Positions 892 through 24,242 of a stretch of 25,274 nt of DNA are shown piece after piece. Made by a program: the position numbers and the translations under genes. Positions within the stretch are counted from its first letter, which is position 1. Each line of letters begins with the position of its first letter. Source of the stretch: a virus; IMG/VR virus record IMGVR_UViG_3300037071_001442, positions 1-25,274 of that record. One strand, 5' to 3'. The notes under the pieces were generated by a model. That model made no database searches, was not told where the DNA came from, and saw only the letters and a program-made list of their open reading frames with translations.

Positions 892-1281
892 TTATCTTTT
901 AAATACAAAAATTGCTGATATTGTTCCTGTTGTGTTTGCTCCTTTTGCCCAATTAGCGCGAATATACTCTCCTGTAAAGGCCGTATAACGAATCATATTA
1001 GAAGATGTTCCAATTGCAACCGTAATAGTTGCGCCCGAAATGTCATTCCAGTTTGTTCCGTCATTGCTATCCTGAAGTTTTATAACCCCGTCCGATGCGT
1101 CTAATCCTGTTGCTATAAATTGCAAAGAAGCAAATGTGTATATTTTACCAGCATCTTGATACGTCCCAGCTGTATTGTTTGCATTTGCGGCTGTTGCTGC
1201 GGCAATTGGCTGAGATTTAGCTCCTCCAAAAAGATTTAAAATGCCTACTAATATTGAATTTAATACTTTTGAATTGTCCAT
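892..1281 (-). CDS. small beta-rich structural/decoration protein
   Basis: 129 aa. A short hydrophobic stretch near the N-terminus (LNSILVGILNLFGGA, about 7-21) is followed by an Ala/Thr-rich linker and a beta-rich region. The phrase IKLQDSNDGTNWNDISG is typical of beta-sandwich domains in phage structural proteins, where a per-sample 'SNDGTNW' strand recurs. Function is inferred from this style of sequence and from the position between a fibre-like protein and a lectin; no catalytic motif is visible. The N-terminal segment could be an anchoring helix. A terminator sits directly upstream, so the gene may need its own promoter or readthrough. Confidence 0.75.
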   Translation of the reverse strand: MDNSKVLNSILVGILNLFGGAKSQPIAAATAANANNTAGTYQDAGKIYTFASLQFIATGLDASDGVIKLQDSNDGTNWNDISGATITVAIGTSSNMIRYTAFTGEYIRANWAKGANTTGTISAIFVFKR

Positions 1282-1293
1282 TTTACTTTATTT

Positions 1294-1315
1294 AAAAAAG
1301 GGGTTTTTACGCCCC
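1294..1315 (-). terminator. Rho-independent terminator after the fibre-like gene
   Basis: Read leftward, GGGG (1315-1312), an 8-base loop and CCCC (1303-1300) are followed by six T residues. It lies 10 bases beyond the stop of the gene ending at 1325. The stem is short, so termination may be partial. Confidence 0.65.
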
Positions 1316-1324
1316 TAATTAATA

Positions 1325-2020
1325 TTAATTACTAAAAGGTGTTGCGATTGTTCCAGTTCCTAAAGTAACTCCAGACACACTCCATTGAGTTGCTGAAATC
1401 ATAGTAAACTCTAACCATCCGCCAATTAATCCACCAGTTGTAGTAGCGTTTAATGTTAATGTTTTATTAGCTGTAGACGCCGCGAATAGCGCATCATTTG
1501 TAGCGTTGGGAGCCGCGATAGTTCCATATACGCCGCCTAAAAACACATCTGACCCTGTTGTATTAACCACATAAGTACCACCAGCAGTTACGGCTTTAAT
1601 CACCTTAACCTTAAACATAGTACCAACTCCACCCGCTGTACAAGCTGGTAACGTAATAGTGTTTGCTACAGTAGTTGTGGTCGCGTTAGCTAAAAAAACT
1701 GACCCGCTTGCTGTAATAGCAGGAGATAAGTTTAATAGCCAAGGTGTAACTGGCGCTTGTAAAGAAGTTCCTGCTCCGCTTGTTCTTGGAGTAATAGTAT
1801 CTGTAGTAACACCAGCTGCGTTTGAAAACGTCTCTGTACCACTATGGGTATTAGTCCCCGTAAAAGCAATATTGTTATCGGAAATGTCAGTTGTAATTGC
1901 CGTTTGAATTGCCGTGTCCATTTGACCCTTGCTTACACCATCAGTAGCCAAAACACCATCAGCTACATTTTGTTGTTTTTTTCCGTGAAAGTCAAATCCA
2001 CTTGAATTTTCTGTTATCAT
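1325..2020 (-). CDS. tail- or head-fibre-like structural protein
   Basis: 231 aa, rich in Thr, Ala, Gly and Asn, with no Cys-based or catalytic motif beyond one isolated Cys. The start (GKKQQNVADGVLATDGVSKGQMD, about 13-35, cited here by position) resembles the KIQNVADP..DAVTKKYVD opening common to phage fibres. The segment FTGTNTHSGTETFSN (about 53-67) is the 'theme-variant' style of fibre repeats. The C-terminal part is a Thr/Gly-rich beta-strand region. It probably forms a trimeric fibre on head or tail; which one cannot be told from sequence. A-rich sequence, not a Shine-Dalgarno site, precedes the ATG. Terminators lie on both sides. Confidence 0.78.
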   Translation of the reverse strand: MITENSSGFDFHGKKQQNVADGVLATDGVSKGQMDTAIQTAITTDISDNNIAFTGTNTHSGTETFSNAAGVTTDTITPRTSGAGTSLQAPVTPWLLNLSPAITASGSVFLANATTTTVANTITLPACTAGGVGTMFKVKVIKAVTAGGTYVVNTTGSDVFLGGVYGTIAAPNATNDALFAASTANKTLTLNATTTGGLIGGWLEFTMISATQWSVSGVTLGTGTIATPFSN

Positions 2021-2035
2021 AATTTTATGTTTTAT

Positions 2036-2062
2036 AAAAAAGGGCAGGTTTTTTGCCTACCC
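2036..2062 (-). terminator. Rho-independent terminator after the 550-aa structural gene
   Basis: Read leftward, GGGTAGG (2062-2056) pairs with CCTGCCC (2048-2042; 7 bp with one G-T pair) and is followed by TTTTTT. It begins 29 bases past the stop codon at 2091. Confidence 0.8.
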
Positions 2063-2090
2063 TTTTTAAGATTATTGAATTATTTAATTA

Positions 2091-3743
2091 CTAAGAAATT
2101 AATTTGTCATCAGCTACAGCAAAGAATTCTCCAATAGAACAAGCTGGATCACCACCGCCAATATTAACTATTTGATAAAAAGGAATCATTTCATCCCCAG
2201 CATCAAAAATTAAAGCAGTAGTACCAACTGAATAAATTGGATAAGATGTACCGTTAACAAAAGCTGTTACGCTTCCGTCTAAAGCTACTTTTAACCAAAC
2301 TAATACAGAAACTCCATCAGAAGGAGCAACAGCAGAAATTGCTTGTAAAGTCGTGCCACCATTAATGTTAGCGCGAGTTGCAAACAAGTCACCGTTAATC
2401 CATGTTGTACCAGCAGCCGAACTACCGTTACCAATAGTTGCATAATCAGTATAGTTATTAATAACCGCACCGTAAACAGCTTTTTTACGGAAACCAACCA
2501 TAAAGGCAGCATCAGTATAATCACCCATCACATAACGTGCAGCTACCATAAATGGAGCTTTTCCTACCACAAATGATTGATCTCCTAATGTTTGTTGATT
2601 TGCTGATGTATGAGAACCTTCAGTTGCCGTATCATCTTGGTCAATTAACAATCCTGTTGCATCCAATACTGGAGCTACAATTGTTTGTGTGCCAATATTT
2701 GTACGGTTTAACGGAGTGTAACCATATTGCCAGCCTAAGGTATCAGCAGTTCCTGTTGGAGCCGCTCCTAATGGGTCTTGAAATACAATTGGACGGTCAA
2801 ACCATTCTTGAACACAAGAAGCGTCAGCAGAATAAACTTGAACCATTAATTTATGAAATACGCGTTCAATAGCTTTAAAGCCAGCTAAATTTGTAGTAGC
2901 CGAACCAGTGCCGTTATCAACCCATACAGTTTTTAACTTCTGAATAAGAGCGTCTTGACCAGTTTGGTTATGAGCCGCTGCTGTATTAAATGAATTAATC
3001 ACAAAAGCCTCATAAATTTGACCAGAAACAGCACCTAAACCAGCGGTTGTTAAAGGAGGAGCAATTAAAGTACCTTGAATTAAGTTACCGTACATGAAAT
3101 CCATTACTGGCTTACCGTTAGCTAAATCAGCACCTACACCAAAAGCATAAACTGCCGCTGTTGTAACCGCGATGTTATTTGTAGCGTAACCAGTTCCATC
3201 ATTGTTTTGCCAGATTTGAACTGTTGATTTACCCATACGGCCACTTTGACCTTGAGCGTAAAGTAAGTTAGCGTCATTGTTCAATAATGGATTATAACCA
3301 GCGTCATCAGTAAAAGTAAAAGTACCATTACTTGTAACAGCCGCTACGCCATAATTTGAAGGATCGGCATTAATTTTAGCCACGATTTGAGTAGCAATGT
3401 ACTCTCTGCGTAACTGAGCCGTTGTACCTTCAACAGCCAAAGAAAGGCTTGTTTTGTAAGAATACAGCTTTAAAGGAGATTCAGAACCAGAGATATTACG
3501 TCTTGAGTCGCCGATTAATACTCCATAAACTGTACTTCCAACTGGAACCCATGTAGTATCTACACCTCCAATTGTTACTACTTGTGGTACTTCAGCTTTA
3601 TATTTAATCTGCTTAATAGAAGATAGTAATTTCTTCCATGTAGCACTTAAACCAGCTATGGTGATGTACCCACCACTGCTTTGTACGTCAGTCGCTGCGG
3701 ACGTGCGTAACAAAACTGCTTCGTTAATTTGTTGTTTTGCCAT
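2091..3743 (-). CDS. large virion structural protein (550 aa), exact role unknown
   Basis: The protein is beta-rich with few charged residues, as virion proteins often are. Residues about 100-160 include AQLRREYIATQIVAKINADP and then TSNGTFTFTDDAG. This pairing of an 'AxxIxAKINAD' helix with a 'GTFTFT' strand recurs in tail-tube, sheath and decoration proteins. The C-terminal third has repeated short strands ending with FDAGDEMIPFYQIVNIGGG. I cannot assign it with certainty; a head-decoration, tail or ring/muzzle protein are all possible. A weak -7-like box (TATATTTA, leftward, 3784-3777) lies 33 bases before the start, and a good terminator follows, so the gene may be its own transcription unit. 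Confidence 0.82.
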   Translation of the reverse strand: MAKQQINEAVLLRTSAATDVQSSGGYITIAGLSATWKKLLSSIKQIKYKAEVPQVVTIGGVDTTWVPVGSTVYGVLIGDSRRNISGSESPLKLYSYKTSLSLAVEGTTAQLRREYIATQIVAKINADPSNYGVAAVTSNGTFTFTDDAGYNPLLNNDANLLYAQGQSGRMGKSTVQIWQNNDGTGYATNNIAVTTAAVYAFGVGADLANGKPVMDFMYGNLIQGTLIAPPLTTAGLGAVSGQIYEAFVINSFNTAAAHNQTGQDALIQKLKTVWVDNGTGSATTNLAGFKAIERVFHKLMVQVYSADASCVQEWFDRPIVFQDPLGAAPTGTADTLGWQYGYTPLNRTNIGTQTIVAPVLDATGLLIDQDDTATEGSHTSANQQTLGDQSFVVGKAPFMVAARYVMGDYTDAAFMVGFRKKAVYGAVINNYTDYATIGNGSSAAGTTWINGDLFATRANINGGTTLQAISAVAPSDGVSVLVWLKVALDGSVTAFVNGTSYPIYSVGTTALIFDAGDEMIPFYQIVNIGGGDPACSIGEFFAVADDKLIS

Positions 3744-5871: not shown

Positions 5872-7362
5872 CTAGCCCTTGTAGATAATACCGCAAAGTG
5901 AAGTATTATAAACAACTAACATATCTTGTTTTAAGCAAGCGTATTTGTTAGCATCTTGTTCTGACTGTACGAAACCAGCTTTACCAGTTAAACCTAAGAA
6001 GTCAGCTTCAACCATTTTACGCGACAAGCCATTAGCCTGTTTGTGTAAAATTTCCATAGTAGGACTGTCGCCTGAACCAGACTTAGACATACCAATGAAG
6101 AAGATTGTGCTTGACATATCAGGATTACCTTGAGCGTCTAACGATGTAAACATACGAGGGTCATCAAACATTGTGTGCTTAATGAACGTACAGCTGTTAC
6201 CGTTAAGGTTAATGCGCATGAAGTTCATACCAGTTCCAGTTTTTGCTCCACCAGCTTCTTTAGAATCAAGAACAGTTTGGAATAAACTTGTATTTTGATT
6301 ACCAGAAATTGTCGGCGCAACACGCTGTAAATTAGCATAAGCAGCAGTACCACAAATACCATAGAACTCGATCTCATCAATTTGATTTGAACCAAGTTGC
6401 ATAGTCTGCATAATGTCTTCAAAGTCATCAGCAGTTGGATTTCCATCTGAACCAGAACCGTAAAGAATGTTGTTACCATTTACTTGTTGTTCGAAACCAT
6501 CACCTTGTACGATAGGGAATCCTGTTTCAGGATCGTTTCCTAAAGCAGAAGTTGTACGTAATGAACCATCAGAATTCTTCATAGAAGATACTCCGAATAA
6601 TTTATGACGCTCGTCTTCAGCTGACATGATAGCTTTTAATTGTTGTACTTTAGTGTACATCCAACCTCTTGCCATTCCTGCTGCGTTTGAATATTCATAC
6701 CATAAAATATCAGAATCAGCATCACCAGTAATGGTAGCTGTTTTACGCTGAATAGTAGTATGAGTAACAAATACATCAGGCTTTTTATCGCGAGAATAAC
6801 CACGTAATGAACCTTCACCAAATGAAGTGTGAACTGGCATACAGGTAAAAGTTCCTGTTTGAGCCGCCACATCAGTTGCATAAGCGAAAGTTGCTCCATC
6901 AACAGTTTGAAAAGTGTAAACGAATCCTGAAGTAACATTACCATTACCACCATCCATTACACGCGCTTGTAAACGAGAGTTGAACATTACAACATCACCT
7001 TGGTTAAGGTAATCGCTTTGCATTAATAATTGGAACGCTCCGCCAGTTGCAGAAGAACCAATTTGCGATAAGATAACCGCGTTAGTTTCGATACGGCCAA
7101 TCACATCAAAACGATATGCTTTATTGCCAATACCACTTCCTTTACCTACAAGGAATTTTTGCTTTGCTCCAGCTTCAGCGTTAATACCATAAGGTGTAAC
7201 TGCTCCATCTGTTAACAACGTCATAATATAACGACGATTTTTATACTCTAACCATTTACGGATTTCGGGCTTTAGCGCCTGATTCCTGATTAAGTCATTT
7301 TCATCTGTACAGGTCGGGCCAAAAGTGCCTTGTACGATGTTTATTTGTCCTTGAAGTGCCAT
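5872..7362 (-). CDS. major capsid protein
   Basis: 496 aa, with few Cys and rich in Gly, Ala, Asn and Thr. It lies two genes after the portal and next to a scaffold-like gene, with a strong terminator directly behind; length and place both fit the HK97-fold capsid protein of crAss-like and related phages (about 490-520 aa). Recognisable stretches include IRKWLEYKNRRYIMTLL (about 34-50), a Gly/Ser-rich region near 90-100, and FMRINLNGNSCTFIKHTMFDD (about 383-403). No catalytic residues are expected. The last 24 residues, ending LKQDMLVVYNTSLCGIIYKG, are strikingly shared with the N-terminus of the membrane protein at 13588-13983 (see findings). The stop is TAG whereas most neighbours use TAA. 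No promoter-like box is visible in the 34-bp gap upstream, so it may be co-transcribed with the scaffold-like gene. Confidence 0.85.
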   Translation of the reverse strand: MALQGQINIVQGTFGPTCTDENDLIRNQALKPEIRKWLEYKNRRYIMTLLTDGAVTPYGINAEAGAKQKFLVGKGSGIGNKAYRFDVIGRIETNAVILSQIGSSATGGAFQLLMQSDYLNQGDVVMFNSRLQARVMDGGNGNVTSGFVYTFQTVDGATFAYATDVAAQTGTFTCMPVHTSFGEGSLRGYSRDKKPDVFVTHTTIQRKTATITGDADSDILWYEYSNAAGMARGWMYTKVQQLKAIMSAEDERHKLFGVSSMKNSDGSLRTTSALGNDPETGFPIVQGDGFEQQVNGNNILYGSGSDGNPTADDFEDIMQTMQLGSNQIDEIEFYGICGTAAYANLQRVAPTISGNQNTSLFQTVLDSKEAGGAKTGTGMNFMRINLNGNSCTFIKHTMFDDPRMFTSLDAQGNPDMSSTIFFIGMSKSGSGDSPTMEILHKQANGLSRKMVEADFLGLTGKAGFVQSEQDANKYACLKQDMLVVYNTSLCGIIYKG

Positions 7363-8749: not shown

Positions 8750-10963
8750 TTATTGACCTTGCAAAAATTTATTTTCAGCGTTATGCTGGTCATTAACCAA
8801 CTTATTGCCAGATTTATTATCATCAATAGCCATTTGACCCTCTGTTTCAGCTCCAATCTTTTCTAACATCAGGTTTCTGGTTTCAGTTAATTGTTGTTCA
8901 TGAATTTGCTGTTGTTGTTGTAACATTTGCTGTTGCATAGCCTGTTGATTTTGAGCATCCGCCGCTTGTTGTCTTATTGCGTTTTCCTGAACTCTTACAT
9001 AAGCATCTTCAAATATTTGTTTGGCTTCTACAAAGGTTTCTGACATTTCAAATTTCAATACTTCCAAAGGAGTTATTTGCTGGGCGTTAATAGAAAACTC
9101 AAGCATTTGACGCATCTTTTGTTTGATCTCGTTATAACGTCCGCCGCTTTGTAAATACACGCCGTAATCCCTGAATCCAATCTCAGTAGTGATTTGCATA
9201 TACTTAAACTTCTCACTACCTAAAATTTGCTCGCCCTCATCCTGTCTGTAAAACGCATAACTAATCTTAGAAGCCTCCGCAATACGCATTAACACTTGTT
9301 CGGTATAAAGCTCCATTGCGTAATAAATAGGGGCTGTTTGCGTCCGCGAATTTTCTATAGCTTGCTGGGAATTCGTTACGGTAGCAGATGCCTGAATAGA
9401 CCCCTCCCTTGTTTCGTTAATACCAGTAAGTCTATCCATTGTCATTAGAATCTGGTCTTTAAGCGCCAACAATTGTTGCACTGACTGACTTAACCCTAAA
9501 TCGAATTCTTTAAACAACTCCATCCCTGATAAATTACGATTAGCAAAGTTTCCTGAAGCTGAACTGTCAACATCAATAAAACTATCGTTAGCCATATCGT
9601 AGGCAATTTCCTTTAGCGTCCGCTTTTTCGGCAACGCTGCTCTGTCGTACATGATAACCTTACCCTTAAATTTAGCAAGTTCTTTCATTATCTGATACAT
9701 TGTAATATCAAATAGATTATCAAAATTCTCTATTACTTTCTGTACTGAAATTCTTAGTCCATCAACAGTACCAACATTAATACCGATATAAGAACTATCA
9801 AGTATATAAGCTGGGTTATCGTGACGGCGCATTTGGAATGGTTTACGGCGCATATTTTTAAATATTACCCCTCCAATCATTGTCCCCTCCCACAAATCTT
9901 CTTCCCACTTAGTTTCGATTACATATTTACCCTTTTCAACGTCCTTTTCAAAAGCTTCTTTATTAAGTTCATATTGTTTAGGACTTATCTCAATTGTCAC
10001 CTTTTCGGTTTCGCTACTCCACTCTAATTGATTGGTGGTTTTAGGCGCGATTTTATAGTAACGAGGCTTCATTGCCTTCCATTCAATATGAATAACGTCC
10101 ACAAGTAATTGCTGTCCGTTCATAGTCCCCATCCACTGTCTTGTTGACCAGTTATCATACCAAGTGTTCTGCATATCCTGAAGCATATTTTTTTCAGCTT
10201 CAGTGAATTCATAACGATTCATTAATTGATAAACTGGCATCCTTTGGCGACAACCCTTAATCGGACTCTTTTCTAAGAAATAATCATTCTCAATCTCCTG
10301 ATAAATTGCATCGCGCGGATCAATTTTCAAATAATCAACATTACCCTTTTCGTCAATTTCAATCTTACCATAACAAGAACTTGTAACACAAACATCCAAG
10401 AATTGCTCGCCAAACTTTTGAACTAAATTTAGCTTCTTAATCTTCTCATTTATAATAAGTTGCATTATATCTTCGCACTTATCTTTGGGGCTATATTTAT
10501 CCCAAATCGGGTCTTCTTCAGAGCTTGGTATTTGAGCGCCCTCCATTACATCTACTCCCGCTTTATCTCGCAAATCTTCTAATGCTGGTTTAGCTAACAT
10601 AGCGCCCGTCATAAAATCCATTTGACGCATCTTATCGCTTATTGCCTCTATGTTAATAGTTTCAACAGTAGCTGCTAATGGTCTTTTGATCCACTCTCCG
10701 TGAAGTAAATTTAGTTTAGTTCTACCCGCGCGATAAGCTATGTATTTAGCTTTATTTTGTTTGCCGTAAGTTTTTTCCCACAGTCCGTTATGTGAGGCTG
10801 TTTTAACGCCATTATACGACTGATAAAGCGAAGTCATTTGCTGTCTTCGCCAATCGTATGTTGTAAGTAAATTTCGTGCGTAAAATAAAAACCCTTTACA
10901 CCAATCAGGTGTTTTTTGTGTTTCGGGAACTGAAATGTCGGGCAGACCAATATAATTACTCAT
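8750..10963 (-). CDS. portal protein
   Basis: 737 aa, immediately downstream of TerL and with the size expected for the dodecameric packaging vertex of crAss-like phages. The best evidence is the segment around 509-550, MDRLTGINETREGS followed by ATVTNSQQAIENSRTQTAP, which has the 'TGI..xREG...A....AI..S' pattern of portal stems in this group. N-terminal residues 20-90 are rich in aromatic and basic residues (YDWRRQQMTSLYQSYNG). The last 70 residues are Gln-rich with long Q runs (QQAMQQQMLQQQQQIHEQQL), probably a C-terminal barrel or coiled coil. An A-rich tract precedes the ATG and a 42-bp AT-rich gap separates it from TerL. Confidence in portal is high; lineage is less certain. Confidence 0.88.
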   Translation of the reverse strand: MSNYIGLPDISVPETQKTPDWCKGFLFYARNLLTTYDWRRQQMTSLYQSYNGVKTASHNGLWEKTYGKQNKAKYIAYRAGRTKLNLLHGEWIKRPLAATVETINIEAISDKMRQMDFMTGAMLAKPALEDLRDKAGVDVMEGAQIPSSEEDPIWDKYSPKDKCEDIMQLIINEKIKKLNLVQKFGEQFLDVCVTSSCYGKIEIDEKGNVDYLKIDPRDAIYQEIENDYFLEKSPIKGCRQRMPVYQLMNRYEFTEAEKNMLQDMQNTWYDNWSTRQWMGTMNGQQLLVDVIHIEWKAMKPRYYKIAPKTTNQLEWSSETEKVTIEISPKQYELNKEAFEKDVEKGKYVIETKWEEDLWEGTMIGGVIFKNMRRKPFQMRRHDNPAYILDSSYIGINVGTVDGLRISVQKVIENFDNLFDITMYQIMKELAKFKGKVIMYDRAALPKKRTLKEIAYDMANDSFIDVDSSASGNFANRNLSGMELFKEFDLGLSQSVQQLLALKDQILMTMDRLTGINETREGSIQASATVTNSQQAIENSRTQTAPIYYAMELYTEQVLMRIAEASKISYAFYRQDEGEQILGSEKFKYMQITTEIGFRDYGVYLQSGGRYNEIKQKMRQMLEFSINAQQITPLEVLKFEMSETFVEAKQIFEDAYVRVQENAIRQQAADAQNQQAMQQQMLQQQQQIHEQQLTETRNLMLEKIGAETEGQMAIDDNKSGNKLVNDQHNAENKFLQGQ

Positions 10964-11005: not shown

Positions 11006-13012
11006 CTACGTACCAAACAGGTCGCTATCTTGCTCATCGTTTTTCAACTCCTGAGTTTCTACGTTATGATGGTAGTTTCCGTTTCTGTCAAAAGTGCCAG
11101 CGTGAAGGTTGAAAGCTTCATCAATATCAGAGTCGTCGTGATTAGATGGAGGCGCTTCTTCTGCCGCTGCTTGCATTAAAGCAATCCCATAAGCATCCGC
11201 CAAATCGTTATCCGACCCTTCTTCAACTTCATCAAAGTTCTGCAACTGATTAATTAATTCATCAAACCATATCTGGTCAACATTATAATAAATAGCGGTA
11301 TCCATTAAACCTACCATTTTAGGTCGGCTTCCCTTTGTTAACAATATTCCGTGAACGTGAGTTTGGTCTGAATTAGAGTTTTCAAATGCTTTTGGACGTA
11401 AGGCTAAGTATTGTTGTCCGTAATTTTCTTCGAAATATTTTATCACATGAGGTTTTGCAGCATCTATCAAAGTAGCCCCTTGTAAATTATAATACACAGC
11501 TAATTTTAAACACATTTCATAAAACATTTCCTTACGCTTAGGTCGCGTACAAATTACCGCAACAGGCGCTATTTGCGGGGCGTTTACAATAGTATTAGCT
11601 CGTATCAATACGCACATAGCCCCTAATGATTTAGAGGTCTTAGAAGTGTCCTGATCGTAGCTGTCGATTCCGCCTGAATATAGCCCCCAATATCCTTTTA
11701 ATGGATGTCCGTTGTCAAGTATTAAAAATGTAGTTTCGTCTTTATCTTCTTTTGTAGCTGGTTTTGCAATTATTTGTAAGGGAATTTTTCTAAGCTTTGT
11801 ATTCTCATCCATCGCCCAATCCAATTTCCATCGGGAATATTTTTTTGGTGAATTAGAAACAATATATTCTTGGTCGTTTAGTTTTTCAGTGTCGAATTCA
11901 TTAACCGCCGTTTTTCTAAACATATCCTTTTCTTCTAAAGGATTGTTCTGCTTATACTCTAAATACTTCTTTTTATTTCCGCTTTTAGCAAGCTTATCTG
12001 ACTTCTTTAAAATAAATTCTTTCGCCGCTATTTCATCTTCAACTCCAATTAATTCAAACTTTTTGTGGGTCAATAATAAATTAGGAATCTGCTCAATAAT
12101 TTCTCCGTTACGGGTAGCGCCTCCGTAATTTGGCTTGTGCATTCGAGTGGCTGGCGCTAAAAATTTAATCATATTAAATTCATCAGCGTGTTCCCAAATA
12201 TATTTATAATCTTTAGAGCCTTTATTTACATTCCCCGCTGTACCGTAAAAAAGCATCGTGCCAATTTGTTTATCACCATCAGTTAATGTATCCTCAGTTG
12301 CATTATAAAACTCAATAAGATTAGGAAATTCTCCGCACTCCTCTGCTACAACATCGTTTAAATATAATCCCTTAAATAAATTGGGGTTATTAAACATTGT
12401 TCTAACGTGAATTTTATTTTTTGTTCCTTTATCAATCCACTGATTGTTTTCGTCTTGTATTTCATAACCCGCTTGTACTTCATCGTTATTACTAATTAAT
12501 GTTTTAGTTTGTAATTCAAGTGGCATTAAAGAATCTCCATTACTCCACTTAGTCATAAAATCTAAAGCATAATCTTTTAACCCTGCCGCTATACCAGCGT
12601 TATATCCATACGTAAATCTATAACCATAATCAATTACAGCCTTATGCGTAAACTCTGAAATACCTTTTCGTCGCGCTTTACCAATAATTATATTTTTACC
12701 TTTAGATTTAGCATATTCATATAATAAGGAAATTTCGTGGTGCAAATCAACTATATCTGGTGTAATAATACCGTTAATAGTTGACATATAATTAAAGTTT
12801 AAATAATAATAAAACCTTCCTGTTATATATGTCCCGCCACTTTGGTAGCCGTTAAAAATCCTAAAAATTTGCTCCTCCCAGTACTTTTCAAAATCTGGCG
12901 TTCCTTTTACTTTAGGATTTAATCTTGAGTCTGCATATTTCGGAATTCCGTAACGTGCGACAGGATTTAAGCAACAGCCCTTCCCTTTATAATATGGCGG
13001 ACGTAAAATCAT
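11006..13012 (-). CDS. terL: terminase large subunit (TerL)
   Basis: 668 aa. Residues 61-74 (TYITGRFYYYLNFN) are the aromatic 'GxxYYxLNF' lead-in common in crAss-like terminases. The ATPase has a degenerate Walker A, GKARRKGIS (111-119), a Walker B ending VVAEECGEF (221-229) with catalytic Glu at 224/225, and a coupling motif GTMLFYGTAG (251-260). The C-terminal nuclease shows GGIDSYDQD (447-455), LIDAAKP (515-521) and DNDLADAYG (601-609), giving three acidic sites as expected for an RNase H-fold headful or cos-cutting nuclease. It packages DNA through the portal encoded next. The ATG overlaps the preceding gene's stop (ATGA), so translation is coupled. Confidence 0.93.
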   Translation of the reverse strand: MILRPPYYKGKGCCLNPVARYGIPKYADSRLNPKVKGTPDFEKYWEEQIFRIFNGYQSGGTYITGRFYYYLNFNYMSTINGIITPDIVDLHHEISLLYEYAKSKGKNIIIGKARRKGISEFTHKAVIDYGYRFTYGYNAGIAAGLKDYALDFMTKWSNGDSLMPLELQTKTLISNNDEVQAGYEIQDENNQWIDKGTKNKIHVRTMFNNPNLFKGLYLNDVVAEECGEFPNLIEFYNATEDTLTDGDKQIGTMLFYGTAGNVNKGSKDYKYIWEHADEFNMIKFLAPATRMHKPNYGGATRNGEIIEQIPNLLLTHKKFELIGVEDEIAAKEFILKKSDKLAKSGNKKKYLEYKQNNPLEEKDMFRKTAVNEFDTEKLNDQEYIVSNSPKKYSRWKLDWAMDENTKLRKIPLQIIAKPATKEDKDETTFLILDNGHPLKGYWGLYSGGIDSYDQDTSKTSKSLGAMCVLIRANTIVNAPQIAPVAVICTRPKRKEMFYEMCLKLAVYYNLQGATLIDAAKPHVIKYFEENYGQQYLALRPKAFENSNSDQTHVHGILLTKGSRPKMVGLMDTAIYYNVDQIWFDELINQLQNFDEVEEGSDNDLADAYGIALMQAAAEEAPPSNHDDSDIDEAFNLHAGTFDRNGNYHHNVETQELKNDEQDSDLFGT

Positions 13013-13539
13013 TTCTTGGCTATTACTTTTTCATAGTAAGACTTCCTATCCATTATCTCCTCAAGCCAGCTTCGCTCCATATTACCCTTGATCTTACCCT
13101 GTTTTCTTATCGATTCGGCAACTTCACTCTCTAATTCAATAATATCTTTTCTTAGTCCTGAAATAATTTCGCGGGCATTCTTAATGGCTGTTACAGAAGT
13201 TTCGTTATCCACAACTTCTAACATCTGCTCAATTTTCTTTTGATACCTAGCTACCTGTTCTACTTTTGGATTATACTGAAGTGATTTATACACCTCTATC
13301 GCGCGATTAACTTTAGGGGATGTAAGAATTTTAGGATTATTGTCATTCCATACGTGAATCATAGCCTTTCGGATACGGTCTTCTTCAGGAAACTGTCTAT
13401 AAATACTAAAATAGTCGTAAGCAAGAATTACATAAAGCAATTCGTCTTCGTTAAGAACCCCTAATTCGGGGGAAAGTTTAACCACTTCTGGTCGTAAAAT
13501 TACGTTTTGGCGGTCATCCGCGTAAATAAGTAAACTCAT
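13009..13539 (-). CDS. terminase-leader protein, coiled coil; possible small terminase
   Basis: 176 aa, highly charged, without any strong family motif. Residues about 1-60 form a compact start (LLIYADDRQ, then ILAYDYFSIYRQFPEEDRIRKA). Residues 90-150 read as coiled coil (VEQVARYQKKIEQMLEVVDN, then RKDIIELESEVAESIRKQ). It is directly upstream of, and overlaps by 4 bp, terL, which is the usual position of a small terminase subunit that recognises packaging DNA. That role is a positional inference only; the sequence shows no clear HTH. A leftward TATATTTG box lies about 31 bases upstream of the start. Confidence 0.7.
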   Translation of the reverse strand: MSLLIYADDRQNVILRPEVVKLSPELGVLNEDELLYVILAYDYFSIYRQFPEEDRIRKAMIHVWNDNNPKILTSPKVNRAIEVYKSLQYNPKVEQVARYQKKIEQMLEVVDNETSVTAIKNAREIISGLRKDIIELESEVAESIRKQGKIKGNMERSWLEEIMDRKSYYEKVIAKK

Positions 13540-13587: not shown

Positions 13588-13983
13588 TTAATATCGCATA
13601 TAGTAGTCCTTGCCTTTATGCTTAACATGAGATATAAAAGAGGTGTCAAGCGTGTCAGAAATTATTGTAAAAGCTAATATAAGAATCTGGGCATCTAAGT
13701 ATCCAATAGCTAAAGCTGTTATTTCTCCGCAAAAAATTGCGAGCGGAATTAACAATGCGTTAATGGCAATAAATCCAAGCAAAAATGCAAATATCAATAA
13801 CCAACCTTTTTTTCTACATCGGAATCTAACTATCTTGTATAAATAGTCGTTGTATTTTTTCTCCGCCCATGTTTTTTTTCTTTCTGGCGGCAATTTATAA
13901 ATAACACTACATATAGATGGGCTATACACCATTAACATATCTTGCTTTAAAAAAGCCGCCTTATATTCAAACTCATTTTCCAT
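13588..13983 (-). CDS. small membrane protein carrying a capsid-C-terminus-like N-terminal peptide
   Basis: 131 aa. Residues 8-30 (KAAF, then LKQDMLMVYSPSICSVIYK) repeat the capsid protein's last 23 residues before its terminal Gly (15/23 identical). They are followed by a basic linker (KLPPERKKTWAEKK, then RFRCRKKGW to residue 61). Two hydrophobic helices come next, about 61-84 (LLIFAFLLGFIAINALLIPL) and about 88-108, with no signal peptide and a basic C-terminal tail (HVKHKGKDYYMRY). Positive-inside reasoning puts both ends, including the capsid-like peptide, in the cytoplasm. The gene sits between the nuclease and terminase genes, and its ATG overlaps the nuclease stop as TAATG. Function is unknown; see findings for the hypotheses (capsid tether, decoy, exclusion protein). 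Confidence 0.8.
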   Translation of the reverse strand: MENEFEYKAAFLKQDMLMVYSPSICSVIYKLPPERKKTWAEKKYNDYLYKIVRFRCRKKGWLLIFAFLLGFIAINALLIPLAIFCGEITALAIGYLDAQILILAFTIISDTLDTSFISHVKHKGKDYYMRY

Positions 13984-14738
13984 TAAAACGCTTCGTTTGT
14001 ATCCTCTGCCACTACAACTTTACTAGCCAATAAAGCATCTATTTGAGGCTTGTATGTTTCGAGTAATAATTTAACGTCCGTCTTAAGATAAACAACTGGT
14101 ATTACTTGATGTTTTGTAAAATCATCGGGCGGAATAAAATGGATAAACAATCGTTTAATTTTTCGCCCCGTTAAATTTTCCCACATATATGCGTATAAAC
14201 TTAACTGTAATGAATATTTTACATAATTACATTCTGACAAATGCTCAAATGGCGGGTATAGATTTTTACTATACTCGCTATTGTATAAAATACCCTTCGA
14301 TTTATTTGTTTTGAAATCAGAAATAATAACAGAAACATTTTTTCCTGTGCCCACCGCTGAAATTTTATCCGCCGTCCCCGCTATACGATATTGCTCATCG
14401 TACAAACACACCTCGTCGTGACTACGCCATCCCTTATATACTTCCAATATGCTTTTCAATCCTTCTTCCCATTCAGGTTTTTCACAAGTCTTGAATTGAT
14501 TATATGTTTCAAGGGCTTCGTGTATGCTGGTTCCGTGATCCCGCGCGTCATCGCCTTTAGCCTTCCATTCAGCAAGTTTTTCTGGCGTGGCGTTTTTATA
14601 CGCGAACGTGTTTTCAAATGGTTCTGATAGCATATTCAGAATTTTTGATACCGATATATACTCATCGCTGTTTACGTGCGTGTAAACGTGTTTAATAGGC
14701 TCTAAAGCCACTTTCTCCTCGAATAGTCCGTGAGCCAT
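13983..14738 (-). CDS. PD-(D/E)XK superfamily exonuclease (RecB/Cas4-like)
   Basis: 251 aa. Motifs of the superfamily are in order: GTSIHEALE (69-77), RIAGTADKI (118-126) with Asp124, VIISDFKTNK (137-146) with the D-x-K pair Asp141/Lys143, and YSLQLSLYAYMWE (175-187) with the supporting Gln178. RLFIHF (196-201) supplies the last strand. Such phage nucleases process DNA ends for recombination or replication; a metal-dependent 5'-3' or 3'-5' activity cannot be chosen from sequence. It is short, so there are no helicase domains. There is no visible four-cysteine Fe-S cluster as in canonical Cas4. It is tightly packed with genes on both sides, which suggests an operon with the 255-aa protein at 14926 as possible partner. 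Confidence 0.85.
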   Translation of the reverse strand: MAHGLFEEKVALEPIKHVYTHVNSDEYISVSKILNMLSEPFENTFAYKNATPEKLAEWKAKGDDARDHGTSIHEALETYNQFKTCEKPEWEEGLKSILEVYKGWRSHDEVCLYDEQYRIAGTADKISAVGTGKNVSVIISDFKTNKSKGILYNSEYSKNLYPPFEHLSECNYVKYSLQLSLYAYMWENLTGRKIKRLFIHFIPPDDFTKHQVIPVVYLKTDVKLLLETYKPQIDALLASKVVVAEDTNEAF

Positions 14739-14925: not shown

Positions 14926-15693
14926 TTATGCTTTTTTAAGTATTGGTTCTGGTGTTTTGTTTATTGTGAGTACATTTTCATCTGCATTTAAAGTGAAAGT
15001 TTCTTCTACCACTTCTGTTTTTTGTCCGCCAGCAATTAAATCTTCTGTAATGTCAGTATCATCGTCAACAACTAACCCGTCAGCCTCAAGTACCACGCAA
15101 CCAAATTTTTTCTCTAATATGCTGGATAACAGCTCTTTCTGTTCGTCAGGCGACATATTTTTAATAGCTTCAATATCTACACCCTGCTCTTTTGTCTTCT
15201 CGAACCAACGAACCAACACTTCTTCGTCGGTCACTTGAACTGAGCCAGACATATAATGTTCAACTTCTGTAATAATCTCCTTAATAATCAATTGTACAGC
15301 ATCAAAGTTATGATAATTGTCGCCCGATTCAATCTTAGCTGTTTTAGGCTTTATCTCTTTATTACCAAGTGATAAAATAGAACCTTCCAGTATAAATCCA
15401 GTACCTTCGTCTTCAGTTGTGTCGATTACAATTTGCAGTCCCGTGATTTCTGTTTCTTGGATGGTGTAGTCTTTAGTGGCTTTATCTTCATCACCGCGCA
15501 AAATTCTACACAACTCCAAATAAAACGGTCTTAGTTCTTTAAATTTATTTTCAAGTCCCAAGTGAATAGGTTGCTTGTTCTTTTCCTTCACTTCTTTATT
15601 AAACACGCGACCATTCTTTTCAACTTGTGTAAGATGCGTGGTCAACAAACCTCCAAAACCGTTGCCCAAAATTTTTACTGATTTTAATTTCAT
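14926..15693 (-). CDS. unknown protein beside the phage nuclease, possible DNA-recombination partner
   Basis: 255 aa. The N-terminus is basic and beta-strand-like (KSVKILGNGFGGLLTTHLTQ), and IHLGLENKFKELRPFYLELC follows at about 43-62. The middle (about 85-125) reads as alternating beta strands ending in KTAKIESGDNYHNFDAVQL. The C-terminus is very acidic (residues about 205-225, DGLVVDDDTDITEDLIAGG). No motif is decisive. An acidic tail and the adjacency to a PD-(D/E)XK nuclease recall phage single-strand-binding or annealing proteins, but that is context only. It could equally be an unrelated regulatory or head-associated protein. Confidence 0.82.
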   Translation of the reverse strand: MKLKSVKILGNGFGGLLTTHLTQVEKNGRVFNKEVKEKNKQPIHLGLENKFKELRPFYLELCRILRGDEDKATKDYTIQETEITGLQIVIDTTEDEGTGFILEGSILSLGNKEIKPKTAKIESGDNYHNFDAVQLIIKEIITEVEHYMSGSVQVTDEEVLVRWFEKTKEQGVDIEAIKNMSPDEQKELLSSILEKKFGCVVLEADGLVVDDDTDITEDLIAGGQKTEVVEETFTLNADENVLTINKTPEPILKKA

Positions 15694-15705: not shown

Positions 15706-15882
15706 TTAGTTATTGTTAATTTTCTCTTTATTCCAAATCCTATCAAGTAAACTTCCTTCGTCCGCCGAATAAGCTATTTTTTCCAAATCAGCCCTTAAAT
15801 TTTCTTTATACTCATCTTCTATTTTTTGAAGCCAAGTTTTTTCAAAAAGTTGCCTTTGCTGATATTCGTCGTTACTTGCCAT
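15706..15882 (-). CDS. small coiled-coil protein of unknown function (58 aa)
   Basis: 58 aa beginning MASNDEYQQRQLFEKTWLQK, helical and charged throughout, ending RIWNKEKINNN. An in-frame upstream ATG at 15954 exists, but that extension would lie entirely within the coding frame of the previous gene. I chose the ATG at 15882 because it leaves only an 11-bp overlap with the preceding stop, like the other overlaps here. No family is recognised. Confidence 0.65.
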   Translation of the reverse strand: MASNDEYQQRQLFEKTWLQKIEDEYKENLRADLEKIAYSADEGSLLDRIWNKEKINNN

Positions 15883-21552: not shown

Positions 21553-21774
21553 ATGAGAAAAATACCTAAAGCATATTGGATACTCCTAATGTACGCCATA
21601 GGTCGCGACGAATTAGGATACTGGGAAAAGATGGGCTATGATAGTGCCTATAGCGAAATTGAGGGCTTATACTCGCACTTTAACGCCTTCCATAAGCAAC
21701 ACCAAATAGAAGATTTTGAAACCGTTGTATTGGCTTATTTGCGGTCACAACTGCCAGACACAACGCAAATTTAA
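21553..21774 (+). CDS. unknown protein (73 aa)
   Basis: 73 aa, MRKIPKAYWILLMYAIGRDE then YSEIEGLYSHFNAFHKQHQI, ending FETVVLAYLRSQLPDTTQI. Aromatic and mostly helical, no signal peptide or transmembrane segment that I would call. Last gene of the B-C cassette; its stop is followed at once by element C. Confidence 0.72.
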   Translation: MRKIPKAYWILLMYAIGRDELGYWEKMGYDSAYSEIEGLYSHFNAFHKQHQIEDFETVVLAYLRSQLPDTTQI

Positions 21775-21865
21775 GCGCGGACGAGTAACGCCACACACAG
21801 AAAGCACAATTTAAATAGGTAGCCCTTCGTCCTGACCAAATAACCCTAATCCGTCGGAAAAGAAA
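21775..21865 (+). other. intergenic element C (structured non-coding)
   Basis: It starts with GGACGAGTAACG (21779-21790), matching GGACGAATAACG in element D. AATAGGTAGCCCTTCGTCC (within 21812-21833) is the inverted form of the element-A 22-mer (21/22 identical). GGACGA at the front can pair with TCGTCC at the back, forming a 6-bp stem. It ends in a purine-rich run before ATG 21866. Confidence 0.6.
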
Positions 21866-21952
21866 ATGAAAACAACAACTAGAAATAAACTAATTAAAAT
21901 AATGAGAGAAGAACGTAACAGATACGCCCCTATCCCTCCTAAAAATAGATAA
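21866..21952 (+). CDS. possible 28-aa basic peptide
   Basis: ATG 21866 opens MKTTTRNKLIKIMREERNRY then APIPPKNR, a very basic 28-aa frame ending 3 bp before the next ATG. Weakly supported by position alone. Confidence 0.45.
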   Translation: MKTTTRNKLIKIMREERNRYAPIPPKNR

Positions 21953-21955
21953 GCT

Positions 21956-22093
21956 ATGAAAACGCAATACTGGAACCCTGACAAAAACGCATGGGTAGAT
22001 AAATTACCGAAAAAGTTTATTGACAAACTTGTAAAAACAAGACAAGTGCCAACTGAAACTATTCAACCCGTAACCGTAACTAAGGAACAATAA
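21956..22093 (+). CDS. small basic protein (45 aa), unknown
   Basis: 45 aa: MKTQYWNPDKNAWVDKLPKK then IDKLVKTRQVPTETIQPVTV. The YWNPDKNAWV start and Pro-containing tail suggest a folded small domain with a free tail. Starts 3 bp after the previous stop and 7 bp before the next ATG, so spacing supports it. Confidence 0.6.
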   Translation: MKTQYWNPDKNAWVDKLPKKFIDKLVKTRQVPTETIQPVTVTKEQ

Positions 22094-22100
22094 AACCCCT

Positions 22101-22361
22101 ATGCTAAGTAAAGACAAAAAATACTTTGCCCTGAACACCATAATCTTTGAAAAAGGACAGACAATCCAGCACAAGAATTTAGGATACACGGCTGTTATTA
22201 AAAGATTCTTAGCCCACGGTAACGCCCTTATTGAAATACCAAACACCCCCGAAAATCAACGTATCTGGGCTTGCTTGAAGGATTCTAAAGGCGCTTACCA
22301 GATAAAAGCTACTAACTTAGCTAAACATTTTAAACATCAAATACTAACTTTAAACCTATGA
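22101..22361 (+). CDS. unknown protein (86 aa)
   Basis: 86 aa beginning MLSKDKKYFALNTIIFEKGQ, with KNLGYTAVIKRFLAHGNALI (25-44) and a helical C-terminal end (ATNLAKHFKHQILTLNL). Beta-rich look with a basic surface. It overlaps the next gene by 4 bp (ATGA), so the two are co-translated. No family recognised. Confidence 0.75.
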   Translation: MLSKDKKYFALNTIIFEKGQTIQHKNLGYTAVIKRFLAHGNALIEIPNTPENQRIWACLKDSKGAYQIKATNLAKHFKHQILTLNL

Positions 22362-22669
22362 AAAAAACAGCGATTCAAAAAAGACATGAGATTTACACAT
22401 CAGCCTTTACAAATTACAATTCTTTTACAAGCCAATCAGGTAGTAGGATGTTGGGGGCTTGCGAAGCGATAACTTGGGCAATTACTGGTTCTTTTTGTAA
22501 TTCGGATGAAATATGCTCCAAGCGCAAATACCCTGAGCTTTTTAGGTTTAAACAAAACGATAATATGTTATGGTTGGACGAAGAAAGATTTTCTAAATTA
22601 TCATACAGAAAAAGAATTAAAATGCGTAAAATAGTACTACAAATTTGCGCCGAAATGACTAAACCCTAA
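22358..22669 (+). CDS. unknown protein (103 aa)
   Basis: 103 aa: basic N-terminus (MKKTAIQKRHEIYTSAFTNY), a hydrophobic middle with two Cys (CEAITWAITGSFCNSDEICS, about 35-54) and a basic, helical C-terminal third (YRKRIKMRKIVLQICAEMTK). Four to five Cys overall could form disulfides or bind metal, but no clear motif. Coupled to the preceding gene by a 4-bp overlap. Confidence 0.75.
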   Translation: MKKTAIQKRHEIYTSAFTNYNSFTSQSGSRMLGACEAITWAITGSFCNSDEICSKRKYPELFRFKQNDNMLWLDEERFSKLSYRKRIKMRKIVLQICAEMTKP

Positions 22670-22673
22670 TACT

Positions 22674-22997
22674 ATGCACCCATCAATAATGTTCGGCGGA
22701 GAGCCAAAGAAATTTAGTGAATTGCTTGAAATGGTAATGGCGGACATTATTGTCTGCCCCGAAGTAAAACAAGACATCCGCCAATTAAAAGTTTGCCTGA
22801 TAACTGATATATTTAGCTGTGGCAAGTGTTTAAATGGCTTTTGCGTGGGTTATGAAGATTATCTATCCCCCACTACCTTTATGTTTGACTGTCTTTATGA
22901 TAAGACCATAGATGAATTAGAGCTAATACTCGCTGAATTGTCAGCGAAATTAAAACTACAAGCAATGTCCGCTATTGAATGGCGAGGCATTAGATAA
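22674..22997 (+). CDS. unknown protein (107 aa) with several Cys
   Basis: 107 aa. It starts MHPSIMFGGEPKKFSELLEM and has a cysteine cluster at about 28-56 (VCPEV, then VCLITDIFSCGKCLNGFC) that might bind a metal or form a structural knuckle. The C-terminus is helical (DELELILAELSAKLKLQAMS). It starts 4 bp after the previous stop, as part of the same small operon. Function unknown. Confidence 0.75.
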   Translation: MHPSIMFGGEPKKFSELLEMVMADIIVCPEVKQDIRQLKVCLITDIFSCGKCLNGFCVGYEDYLSPTTFMFDCLYDKTIDELELILAELSAKLKLQAMSAIEWRGIR

Positions 22998-23114
22998 ATT
23001 ACTCCGCCCTCTTTTGTTCAGCGTTTTCCCTGACAGGTGGATATGAATAAAATGGCGGGGCTTATTGTATTGCAGGACGAATAACGATTTTTTAACTGAT
23101 AAAATATTAAAGCC
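22998..23114 (+). other. intergenic element D (structured non-coding)
   Basis: CCGCC (23004-23008) can pair with GGCGG (23054-23058), and within that loop TTCAG/CTGA form a smaller hairpin. AGGACGAATAACG (23074-23086) matches GGACGAGTAACG of element C and the start of the element-A 22-mer. The ATG of the 162-aa gene follows at 23115. Confidence 0.55.
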
Positions 23115-23603
23115 ATGAATTTCACTTCACAAAGTCACAACCGCAAAAACTCTATCCTAAAGGACGGAACCCACTTGGTAACTATCTCTGAAGTGTCGGA
23201 CGATTTAGCTAAAGGCTTTCCTTCTCTCTGGTCAGATCGTACACCACAATTAAGATTTAAGTTTAAAAGTGCTTCAGGCGCGTTCATAAGTCAGTGGGTC
23301 AACTTACTTGGTTATTATACTAAAGAGTCCATCGGTGAAATAATTCCCGCTCATATCACATTTAAACAGCATCCTGTTTCAAAAGAATTCTTTGCTGTTG
23401 ATGTTCGCAATAACAAGCGTATTGAGAATAAAGAAAAGACTGCTGTTTGTCATGCTATTATCGGACGCATAGCTTCATCTTCAGGAATGATCGACGGGCA
23501 GGATTTTGGTTTAAATGATCTTCTTGGTCGGCAGTTATATATTACTGTGGCTAATGGTAAAGTAACGCATACTCACACTATACAGGAAATGGTTTCTAAA
23601 TAA
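23115..23603 (+). CDS. unknown protein (162 aa), possibly SSB-like
   Basis: 162 aa. The order 'KDGTHLVTISEVSDD' (about 16-30), then RTPQLRFKFKSASGAFISQW and NLLGYYTKE, recalls phage proteins with an OB-like beta barrel in which a G-T-H-x-V-x-I start leads to a 'PQLxFxF...W' core. The second half is helix/strand mixed, GRIASSSGMIDGQDFG followed by LLGRQLYITVANGKVTH. I have no direct family match, and there is no acidic C-terminal tail as expected for classical SSB. The gene ends at the minus-strand terminator, and is the last in the rightward block. Confidence 0.75.
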   Translation: MNFTSQSHNRKNSILKDGTHLVTISEVSDDLAKGFPSLWSDRTPQLRFKFKSASGAFISQWVNLLGYYTKESIGEIIPAHITFKQHPVSKEFFAVDVRNNKRIENKEKTAVCHAIIGRIASSSGMIDGQDFGLNDLLGRQLYITVANGKVTHTHTIQEMVSK

Positions 23604-23625
23604 AAAAAGCGGGTACTTTGCCCGC
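23602..23625 (-). terminator. Rho-independent terminator ending the leftward unit at 25268-23709
   Basis: Leftward, GCGGG (23625-23621), loop CAAAGTA and CCCGC (23613-23609) are followed by TTTTTTT and the end of the rightward gene. The T run serves the minus strand; no T run exists for the plus strand, so it is not clearly bidirectional. The gap before it also holds CCGCT (23667-23671) pairing with AGCGG (23693-23697) around a small TGCT/AGCA hairpin. Confidence 0.75.
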
Positions 23626-23708
23626 CCTATCAGCTCGTTATTGATTCGACTTTCTACTCAGTGTCACCGCTCAAGGACTGCTGCTAAAGCAAAGCGGATG
23701 TGTTTATT

Positions 23709-24242
23709 TTAAGTAAGTTGTTTTCTGAATGTCTCGCTTTTAATTTTAGAAGCCATTTCTTGTACTCGCTTCCATTCTTCATATTCTTTAGGAGTTAAAT
23801 CATCAGTCGTTTTTGGCTTCCCTTCAGTCACAAGTAAATCATTTGCCTTACAAAATGCTGAGTAAAATATATCAAGCTCTTGTTTGTATAGTCGCGGATA
23901 AACCCCCAGCATTGATTCTATTTCCATGTACTCGGCTACTGTACAAGTGACAAAGTAATTCCCTTTAAGATTTAACTGTTTAACTTTCTTAGTCGGTATC
24001 TCTCCGTATTTAGGAATTTTATAATTGACGCGGGCTACAATTTGTCCCCATAATCTCACAGTATCATCATCTTTAAACTTAAAGAAATAGTCCGCCGTTT
24101 TCTCCCCTTCAATATCTTCAATGGTTAGCTTATGCTTTTTCATTAAGTCATTAAGCATTTTATCGGCGTTAATTTTTTCTCCGCCAATACCCTTATCCGC
24201 AAGTGCCTTTAACTTTTTAGCTAATTCTATGTGTTTACTCAT
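23709..24242 (-). CDS. DUF2786-like phage protein (177 aa)
   Basis: 177 aa. The N-terminal 45 residues, LAKKLKALADKGIGGEKINA then LNDLMKKHKLTIEDIEGEK, match the pattern of the DUF2786 helical domain (a 'LAxxLxAxAdkg...A..mL..Lm.kHxLt.edie' signature). The remainder (about 46-177) is unassigned but contains DDTVRLWGQIVARVNYKIPK and helical, charged C-terminal sequence. DUF2786 proteins are common in phages and their role is unknown. The start overlaps the upstream gene by 8 bp. A terminator follows the stop. Confidence 0.8.
   Translation of the reverse strand: MSKHIELAKKLKALADKGIGGEKINADKMLNDLMKKHKLTIEDIEGEKTADYFFKFKDDDTVRLWGQIVARVNYKIPKYGEIPTKKVKQLNLKGNYFVTCTVAEYMEIESMLGVYPRLYKQELDIFYSAFCKANDLLVTEGKPKTTDDLTPKEYEEWKRVQEMASKIKSETFRKQLT

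Follow-up and report, generated by a model that had tools for sequence, protein, structure and literature searches.

Several bacterial defence systems are known to respond to proteins of the phage head. For CapRel (PMC9712102) and staphylococcal Thoeris (PMC11312562) the major capsid protein (MCP) acts as the trigger or as an escape locus, and the same role is listed for it with CBASS, Pycsar, Lit, PifA and SEFIR (PMC10884400). Avs1-4 recognise the large terminase and the portal (PMC12931631). For CapRel, triggered by the MCP and by Gp54, and for Lit, activated by the Gol part of T4 gp23, it is the MCP or a binder of an overlapping site that meets the immune sensor (PMC9712102, PMC11578894). 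Phages also encode proteins that act on the virion assembly of others or on virion-protein sensors. Tab, the tail assembly blocker of Pseudomonas prophage JBD26, acts in the first way; it is expressed from a prophage, targets the tape measure protein and is not known to be a piece of a structural protein (PMC10884400). The DSR2 inhibitor DSAD1 is a small accessory phage protein that counters a virion-protein sensor, and it is not known to be a copy of the sensed protein (PMC11087589).

The genes analysed here share with CapRel and Lit the putative meeting of an MCP, or of a binder of the same site, with an immune sensor. They differ in that the CapRel and Lit proteins are triggers, Gol being part of gp23 and Gp54 having no sequence similarity to the MCP, whereas the phages of this clade encode free-standing copies of MCP and portal segments, whose partner is putative. 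A gene set of capsid and portal fragment copies was not found described in the literature. What appears new is the anatomy, which we could match to no described system; the function is putative.

A capsid-like peptide in a membrane protein of a crAss-like phage

The window is the whole stretch of DNA analysed, 25,274 nucleotides. Since its full-length MCP and portal are distantly related to phicrAss001 gp32 and gp20, we class the window phage as a divergent environmental crAss-like virus. The best Foldseek matches of an AlphaFold2 (AF2) model of the MCP are phicrAss001 capsid chains (E 3e-19), and the gene order TerL, portal, MCP fits a Crassvirales-like phage.

A sequence-only reading of this DNA had claimed that a 131-aa membrane protein begins with a copy of the C-terminus of the phage's own MCP. 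Both open reading frames are present as claimed (Table 1), and residues 8-30 of the small protein align without gaps to MCP residues 473-495, with 15 of 23 positions identical and a BLOSUM62 score of 80. The top score among 2,000 shuffles of the membrane protein was 51, all-against-all BLAST within the genome gave the pair E = 3.4e-6, and an MCP profile scored 13.8 bits on the window ORF, compared with a maximum of 5.3 bits for the reversed MCP profile over 1,659 small ORFs. The protein holds only the last hairpin of the MCP, not the whole P- and A-domains of an HK97-fold capsid protein. Hydropathy backs the two hydrophobic stretches described after a basic linker. The gene looks real, because its start codon shares bases with the stop codon of the nuclease gene upstream (TAATG) and a second contig of the same virus (a 31.9-kb IMG/VR contig) carries an identical copy. 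The statement that no protein of such a plan has been described agrees with our searches: Pfam, PHROGs and PADLOC gave no match (the PADLOC models being run on the window protein and on three further mimic proteins), and homologues came from the same virus only in IMG/VR and were absent from the phage collection.

Table 1 Features of the window and one gene of a related contig (positions are those of the window unless a contig is named)
Feature	Position	Strand	Basis or remark
Major capsid protein (MCP), 496 aa, HK97 fold, crAss-like	5872..7362	-	phicrAss001 gp32 profile match, E 2e-8
MCP segment matching the membrane-protein peptide, residues 473-495	5878..5946	-	alignment; C-terminal hairpin in model
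Portal protein	8750..10963	-	phicrAss001 gp20 match, E 1.2e-66
Terminase large subunit (TerL)	11006..13012	-	phrog_6681; no copied fragments found in the clade
Putative small terminase (TerS)	13009..13539	-	position before TerL; orthologues in relatives
131-aa membrane protein gene, stop included	13588..13983	-	ORF; between nuclease gene and TerS
Hydrophobic segment 2, residues ~88-109	13657..13722	-	hydropathy
Hydrophobic segment 1, residues ~59-84	13732..13809	-	hydropathy
Capsid-like peptide, residues 8-30 (KAAFLKQDMLMVYSPSICSVIYK)	13894..13962	-	alignment, BLAST, profile
PD-(D/E)XK-type exonuclease, upstream border of slot A	13983..14738	-	phrog_298, E 1.6e-26
Conserved 255-aa gene ('ssb-like' is a working label only), marks slot B	14926..15693	-	relatives
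58-aa member of the 'MASN..EY.QR' leader family	15706..15882	-	comparison with relatives
Free-standing 68-aa gene	G005 52783-52986 = L010 989-1195	- (G005), + (L010)	homologous to the fused domain of L106

The peptide's 69 bases match the MCP genes of the window phage and of its relatives L003 and L004 at 46, 49 and 44 positions, respectively. These three MCPs are 78-85% identical, and their last 30 residues are almost frozen (29/30 identical in L003 and 28/30 in L004). Because the DNA is about equally distant from the three genes, the copy probably predates the split of the three phages; it is an old copy, as had been proposed, and a fresh duplication is ruled out. The different synonymous codons reported for 8 of the 15 identical residues were confirmed, and they had been taken as a sign of selection on the peptide. 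Neutral drift simulated from the window MCP accumulated 8 silent changes by the time of 8 residue changes in 0 of 2,000 runs, which favours selection, but 5% of the runs from an L003-like ancestor reached 8 silent changes, so that constraint on the peptide is suggested, though not strongly.

Copies of MCP and portal segments in related phages

A self-comparison of 15 related contigs revealed such copies in other phages, and further scans of IMG/VR with TerL and MCP alignments yielded about 67 TerL-bearing contigs; all relatives are metagenomic and without a known host. About 17 small ORFs on 13 contigs carry copies of 20-45 residues of the MCP or the portal, drawn from five segments of the MCP and two of the portal. 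The window protein is thus a member of a recurrent set and not the one odd protein it had been taken for, and a unique self-mimic is ruled out by these copies. Five within-genome pairs were found by BLAST (E 3.8e-12 to 1.9e-5). In contig G005 (L010) an 82-aa ORF copies MCP residues 190-224 with 54% identity (E 4e-12), and a second ORF, of 73 aa, copies portal residues 435-479 with 49% identity (E 4e-10); a 72-aa ORF of G012 copies portal residues 430-471 (E 1e-6), and the C-terminal end of a 109-aa ORF of G009 corresponds to MCP residues 308-329 (68% identical, E 2e-5). Profile searches added ORFs in L076, L055, L097 (three), L106, L074, L075 (two), L056, L083 (one, with a borderline second) and L069. 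One and the same portal segment is copied in several phages, and residues ~430-480 and ~159-203 of the window portal have counterparts copied in small proteins of relatives. In the members that derive from the portal no membrane segment is obvious, so the membrane setting is not general.

The phenomenon is confined to this clade so far. Six gut or marine crAss records (~18-50 kb of each examined) held no such ORF, and neither a tblastn search with the MCP against the phage collection nor a search with the portal alignment against the bacterial genome collection gave a match. Short N-terminal portal pieces in L082 (3812-4063) and L105 (3861-4082) were rejected as mimics, as they look rather like split or frameshifted portal genes.

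As a control against chance, 1,659 distinct small ORFs were searched with profiles built for nine conserved proteins and, in parallel, with profiles of the reversed alignments, and matches above 6 bits were counted. The MCP profile gave 9 matches (0 reversed) and the portal profile 10 (1 reversed), one of the ten being the split portal gene of L082, whereas TerL gave 0 and 0. For TerS (7 vs 3 reversed), scaffold (2 vs 2), connector (1 vs 0), the exonuclease (4 vs 3) and the ssb-like protein (2 vs 2) a clear excess over the reversed profiles was not seen, and a 375-aa head protein gave 2 matches vs 5 reversed. The absence of TerL fragments is informative, since TerL makes up 15% of the large-ORF residues (MCP and portal together 22%). 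A weak hint of a TerL fragment in G002 (47978-48283; 2.5 bits, 0/300 shuffles) is not claimed, as no TerL match in the survey exceeded 4 bits. MCP and portal likewise dominated when small ORFs were matched to large ones by BLAST and edge pieces, whole homologues and split genes were set aside.

These matches are also concentrated in one place. An operon zone, defined as the 8.5 kb upstream of TerL on the TerL strand, accounts for 17 of the 18 matches and for 488 of the 1,659 small ORFs (P 1e-8); the window ORF has both an MCP segment above the reversed-profile background and the location upstream of TerS and TerL by which the set is defined. The portal match at G012 55004-55213 lies outside the zone and probably arose by chance. 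That the resemblances as a whole are an accident or a detection artefact is hardly credible. In its favour, 7 of the 17 members score below 10 bits singly (L056, G009, L083, L069, the two of L075, and L097 3538-4002), and the recurrent segments are partly the most conserved, and so the most easily detected, parts of MCP and portal. One or two of these seven could have arisen by chance; for G009 there is BLAST support, and the L074/L075 pair (portal 160-203) and the G009/L056 pair (MCP 280-323) are mutually supporting. For the whole set, chance is ruled out by the shuffles, the location and the reversed profiles (MCP 0, portal 1 above 6 bits), with the BLAST E values and the clustering in the operon zone pointing the same way.

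Location, leaders and exchange of passengers

Within the zone the genes occupy two slots. Slot A, from the exonuclease to TerS, holds the members of the window, G005, G012 and L097, and slot B, upstream of the ssb-like gene, holds most of the others. At least one fragment gene is present in 12 of 40 contigs with a complete zone and in 10 of 22 TerL clusters. Six contigs whose TerLs are 96-100% identical (G008, G009, G010, G012, G015 and L069) carry different fragments or none.

Some of the copies stand behind a shared leader. The 'MASN..EY.QR' leader, limited to this clade, was found in 10 members, three of which have a significant MCP or portal passenger; the other passengers, including that of the window's own 58-aa member, gave no significant head-protein match. 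At the DNA level the leader and the 3' junction of these genes align between phages and the middle is unrelated, as in G015 and L069, whose TerLs are 99.6% identical. A seventh match to the MASN pattern, in L154, was discarded as chance, lying inside a longer frame in a record without a portal. A Tat-like leader is shared by five members (G005, L055, G002, L097 and L076, not the window protein), three of them with MCP 190-226 as passenger. The motif RR-x-F-[LI]-[KR] is visible in four of the five, L076 reading RGGFLK, and Tat export is putative. G009 and L056 have a leader domain in common, and in L106 (122-290, +) the portal mimic is fused to a domain homologous to the free-standing 68-aa protein of G005. 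Tat-like leader proteins with other passengers occur at L097 4007-4420 (+) and at G002 47978-48283 (-), the latter equivalent to L004 106-414 (+), where 'VVHNPMFDG' (cf. MCP ~390) and 'YYAGIDPASEDGSKGAVLISW' (terminase nuclease-like) are both below significance.

The swapping of leaders and passengers indicates frequent recombination, and a GIY-YIG endonuclease gene (L010 1813-2706) lies between an MCP-mimic gene and the ssb-like gene. Both would suit an origin of the copies as recombination debris, that is, new genes born of captured phage-gene pieces, with the resemblance tied to no function. We regard this as improbable: TerL, which is nearer and longer than the MCP, contributed 0 fragments compared with 9 from the MCP and 9 from the portal; frame and peptide are preserved despite the divergence of the DNA; and the Tat-like and portal-type families keep 35-39% identity across distant phages. 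The MCP and portal specificity, the shared location, the patchy presence and the exchange of passengers argue instead for a protein-level function under diversifying pressure.

Structural units and putative function of the copies

In the AF2 model of the MCP (mean pLDDT 76) the copied pieces fall on secondary-structure units: the strands at 197-226 that precede the spine helix, this helix itself (237-256), the helix 311-324 with the strand 331-337, the strands at 381-395, and the C-terminal hairpin 472-494. It is the last of these (strands 472-484 and 490-494) that the window peptide copies. For the 73-aa portal mimic the model (mean pLDDT 81) shows a small alpha/beta unit, and 14 of its 15 best PDB matches are portals; the matches are weak (E 2.5-6) and the input alignment included portal rows, so the fold search illustrates the relationship only. 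Portal residues 430-480 presumably form the clip domain, by analogy with T4-type portals; the phicrAss001 paper leaves this unsettled, and we do not use it as evidence.

From this anatomy we propose that the membrane protein may be one of the exchangeable accessory genes of an environmental crAss-like phage clade, each carrying a copied unit of MCP or portal (hairpin, helix-strand or portal subdomain), either by itself or preceded by a leader or anchor. Expressed from the operon that directly precedes the packaging genes, the copied units would act as protein-level mimics, filling the site at which a partner binds MCP or portal but contributing nothing else of either protein. The likeliest partner would be a host immune sensor of newly made MCP or portal, for which the mimic would be a non-activating competitor. 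We infer that the ORFs are translated and that their products bind and antagonise such a partner. We see here an apparently undescribed form of molecular mimicry, perhaps a decoy, and antagonism of host sensors of MCP and portal is, tentatively, our first choice among the readings. Somewhat more doubtful is its extension to an undescribed gene class, in which leaders and captured capsid or portal segments form cassettes that serve as decoys matched to different host sensors.

The decoy reading is supported by the restriction of the copies to MCP and portal, for which the reversed-profile controls were clean, by their common operon zone and patchy presence, by the standing of the MCP as an immune trigger or escape locus, and by the recognition of portal and large terminase by Avs proteins. 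The recurrence of one and the same portal segment, one copy of which gives a (weakly) portal-like AF2 model, also speaks for it, and the swapping of fragments among phages with TerLs 96-100% identical, together with the replaced middle of the MASN genes, fits arms-race genes. It is weakened by the ability of epitope-carrying peptides to activate, as Gol activates Lit (PMC9712102), and by the finding of no TerL fragment although Avs proteins sense TerL. Some copied strands look like the core of the fold and not its surface, those members that have a Tat-like leader would be moved out of the cytoplasm, and the phages of the clade have no known host or matching defence system; these points weaken it as well.

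Whose head proteins are copied bears on the alternatives. When each mimic was ranked against all full-length MCPs or portals, the window peptide scored 80 with its own MCP and 83, 82 and 82 with others (rank 4 of 40). The own protein came first for the G005 73-aa ORF and for G009, second for the G005 82-aa ORF, fifth for L055 (a near tie) and for the MCP mimic of L076 (115 vs 137 against G005), eighth for G012 (86 vs 95), 11th for L074 and 16th for L106. For a portal mimic of L097 it was 46th of 55 (48 vs 95 against L138/L140). By this ranking the resemblance is to the head proteins of the clade generally, and the copies, which are old, are usually not nearest to the protein of their own phage. 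The sequence-only reading was therefore too specific in naming the phage's own capsid: the window peptide scores slightly better with other MCPs and several mimics are clearly nearer to foreign proteins. Strict co-variation with the own MCP, the check it had proposed, was not seen in this ranking.

The nearness of L097, L076 and G012 to foreign head proteins would suit a role in interference between phages, in which dominant-negative pieces enter or block the MCP shells and portal rings of co-infecting relatives. MCP and portal form shells and rings, where a few bad subunits are costly, the genes are accessory and exchanged, and Tab is a precedent for blocking a competitor's virion assembly (PMC10884400). 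We nevertheless think interference rather unlikely, as the window peptide, the G005 73-aa ORF and G009 are about as near to their own protein as to any other, so that self-poisoning would need explaining, and the set includes no copies of TerS or of further virion proteins.

A third possibility is a factor for the phage's own assembly: anchored or soluble fragments would nucleate, tether or time the heads by strand exchange with the MCP or by occupying portal surfaces. In T4, prohead formation begins at the inner membrane and involves a membrane chaperone; the members with Tat-like leaders, like the window protein, have hydrophobic stretches, and the genes adjoin packaging and head genes. This we hold to be unlikely, since near-identical phages lack the gene or carry another fragment and no anchor is obvious in the members derived from the portal. 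Mimicry or a decoy fits the wider anatomy better than the tethering of procapsids does, and we favour the host-sensor decoy, followed by interference between phages and then by a factor for own assembly.

If the mimics are antagonists, each would mark a surface of MCP or portal that some cell component recognises, which would offer a sequence-based route to hidden head-protein sensors in the hosts of these phages and to the part of the protein that they read. If they poison rivals, phages would compete in a way that is new. In both cases, a type of small phage gene labelled 'hypothetical' gains a traceable origin and a testable function.

Two other arrangements were seen among the contigs. In L144 (uncultured phage cr131_1) the major head protein is annotated as two parts that flank an HNH endonuclease gene (21672-24051), probably an intron-like insertion. 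G006 (991-3327) and G009 (42697-45031) each carry a tandem pair of ~380-aa paralogues that are 31% identical.
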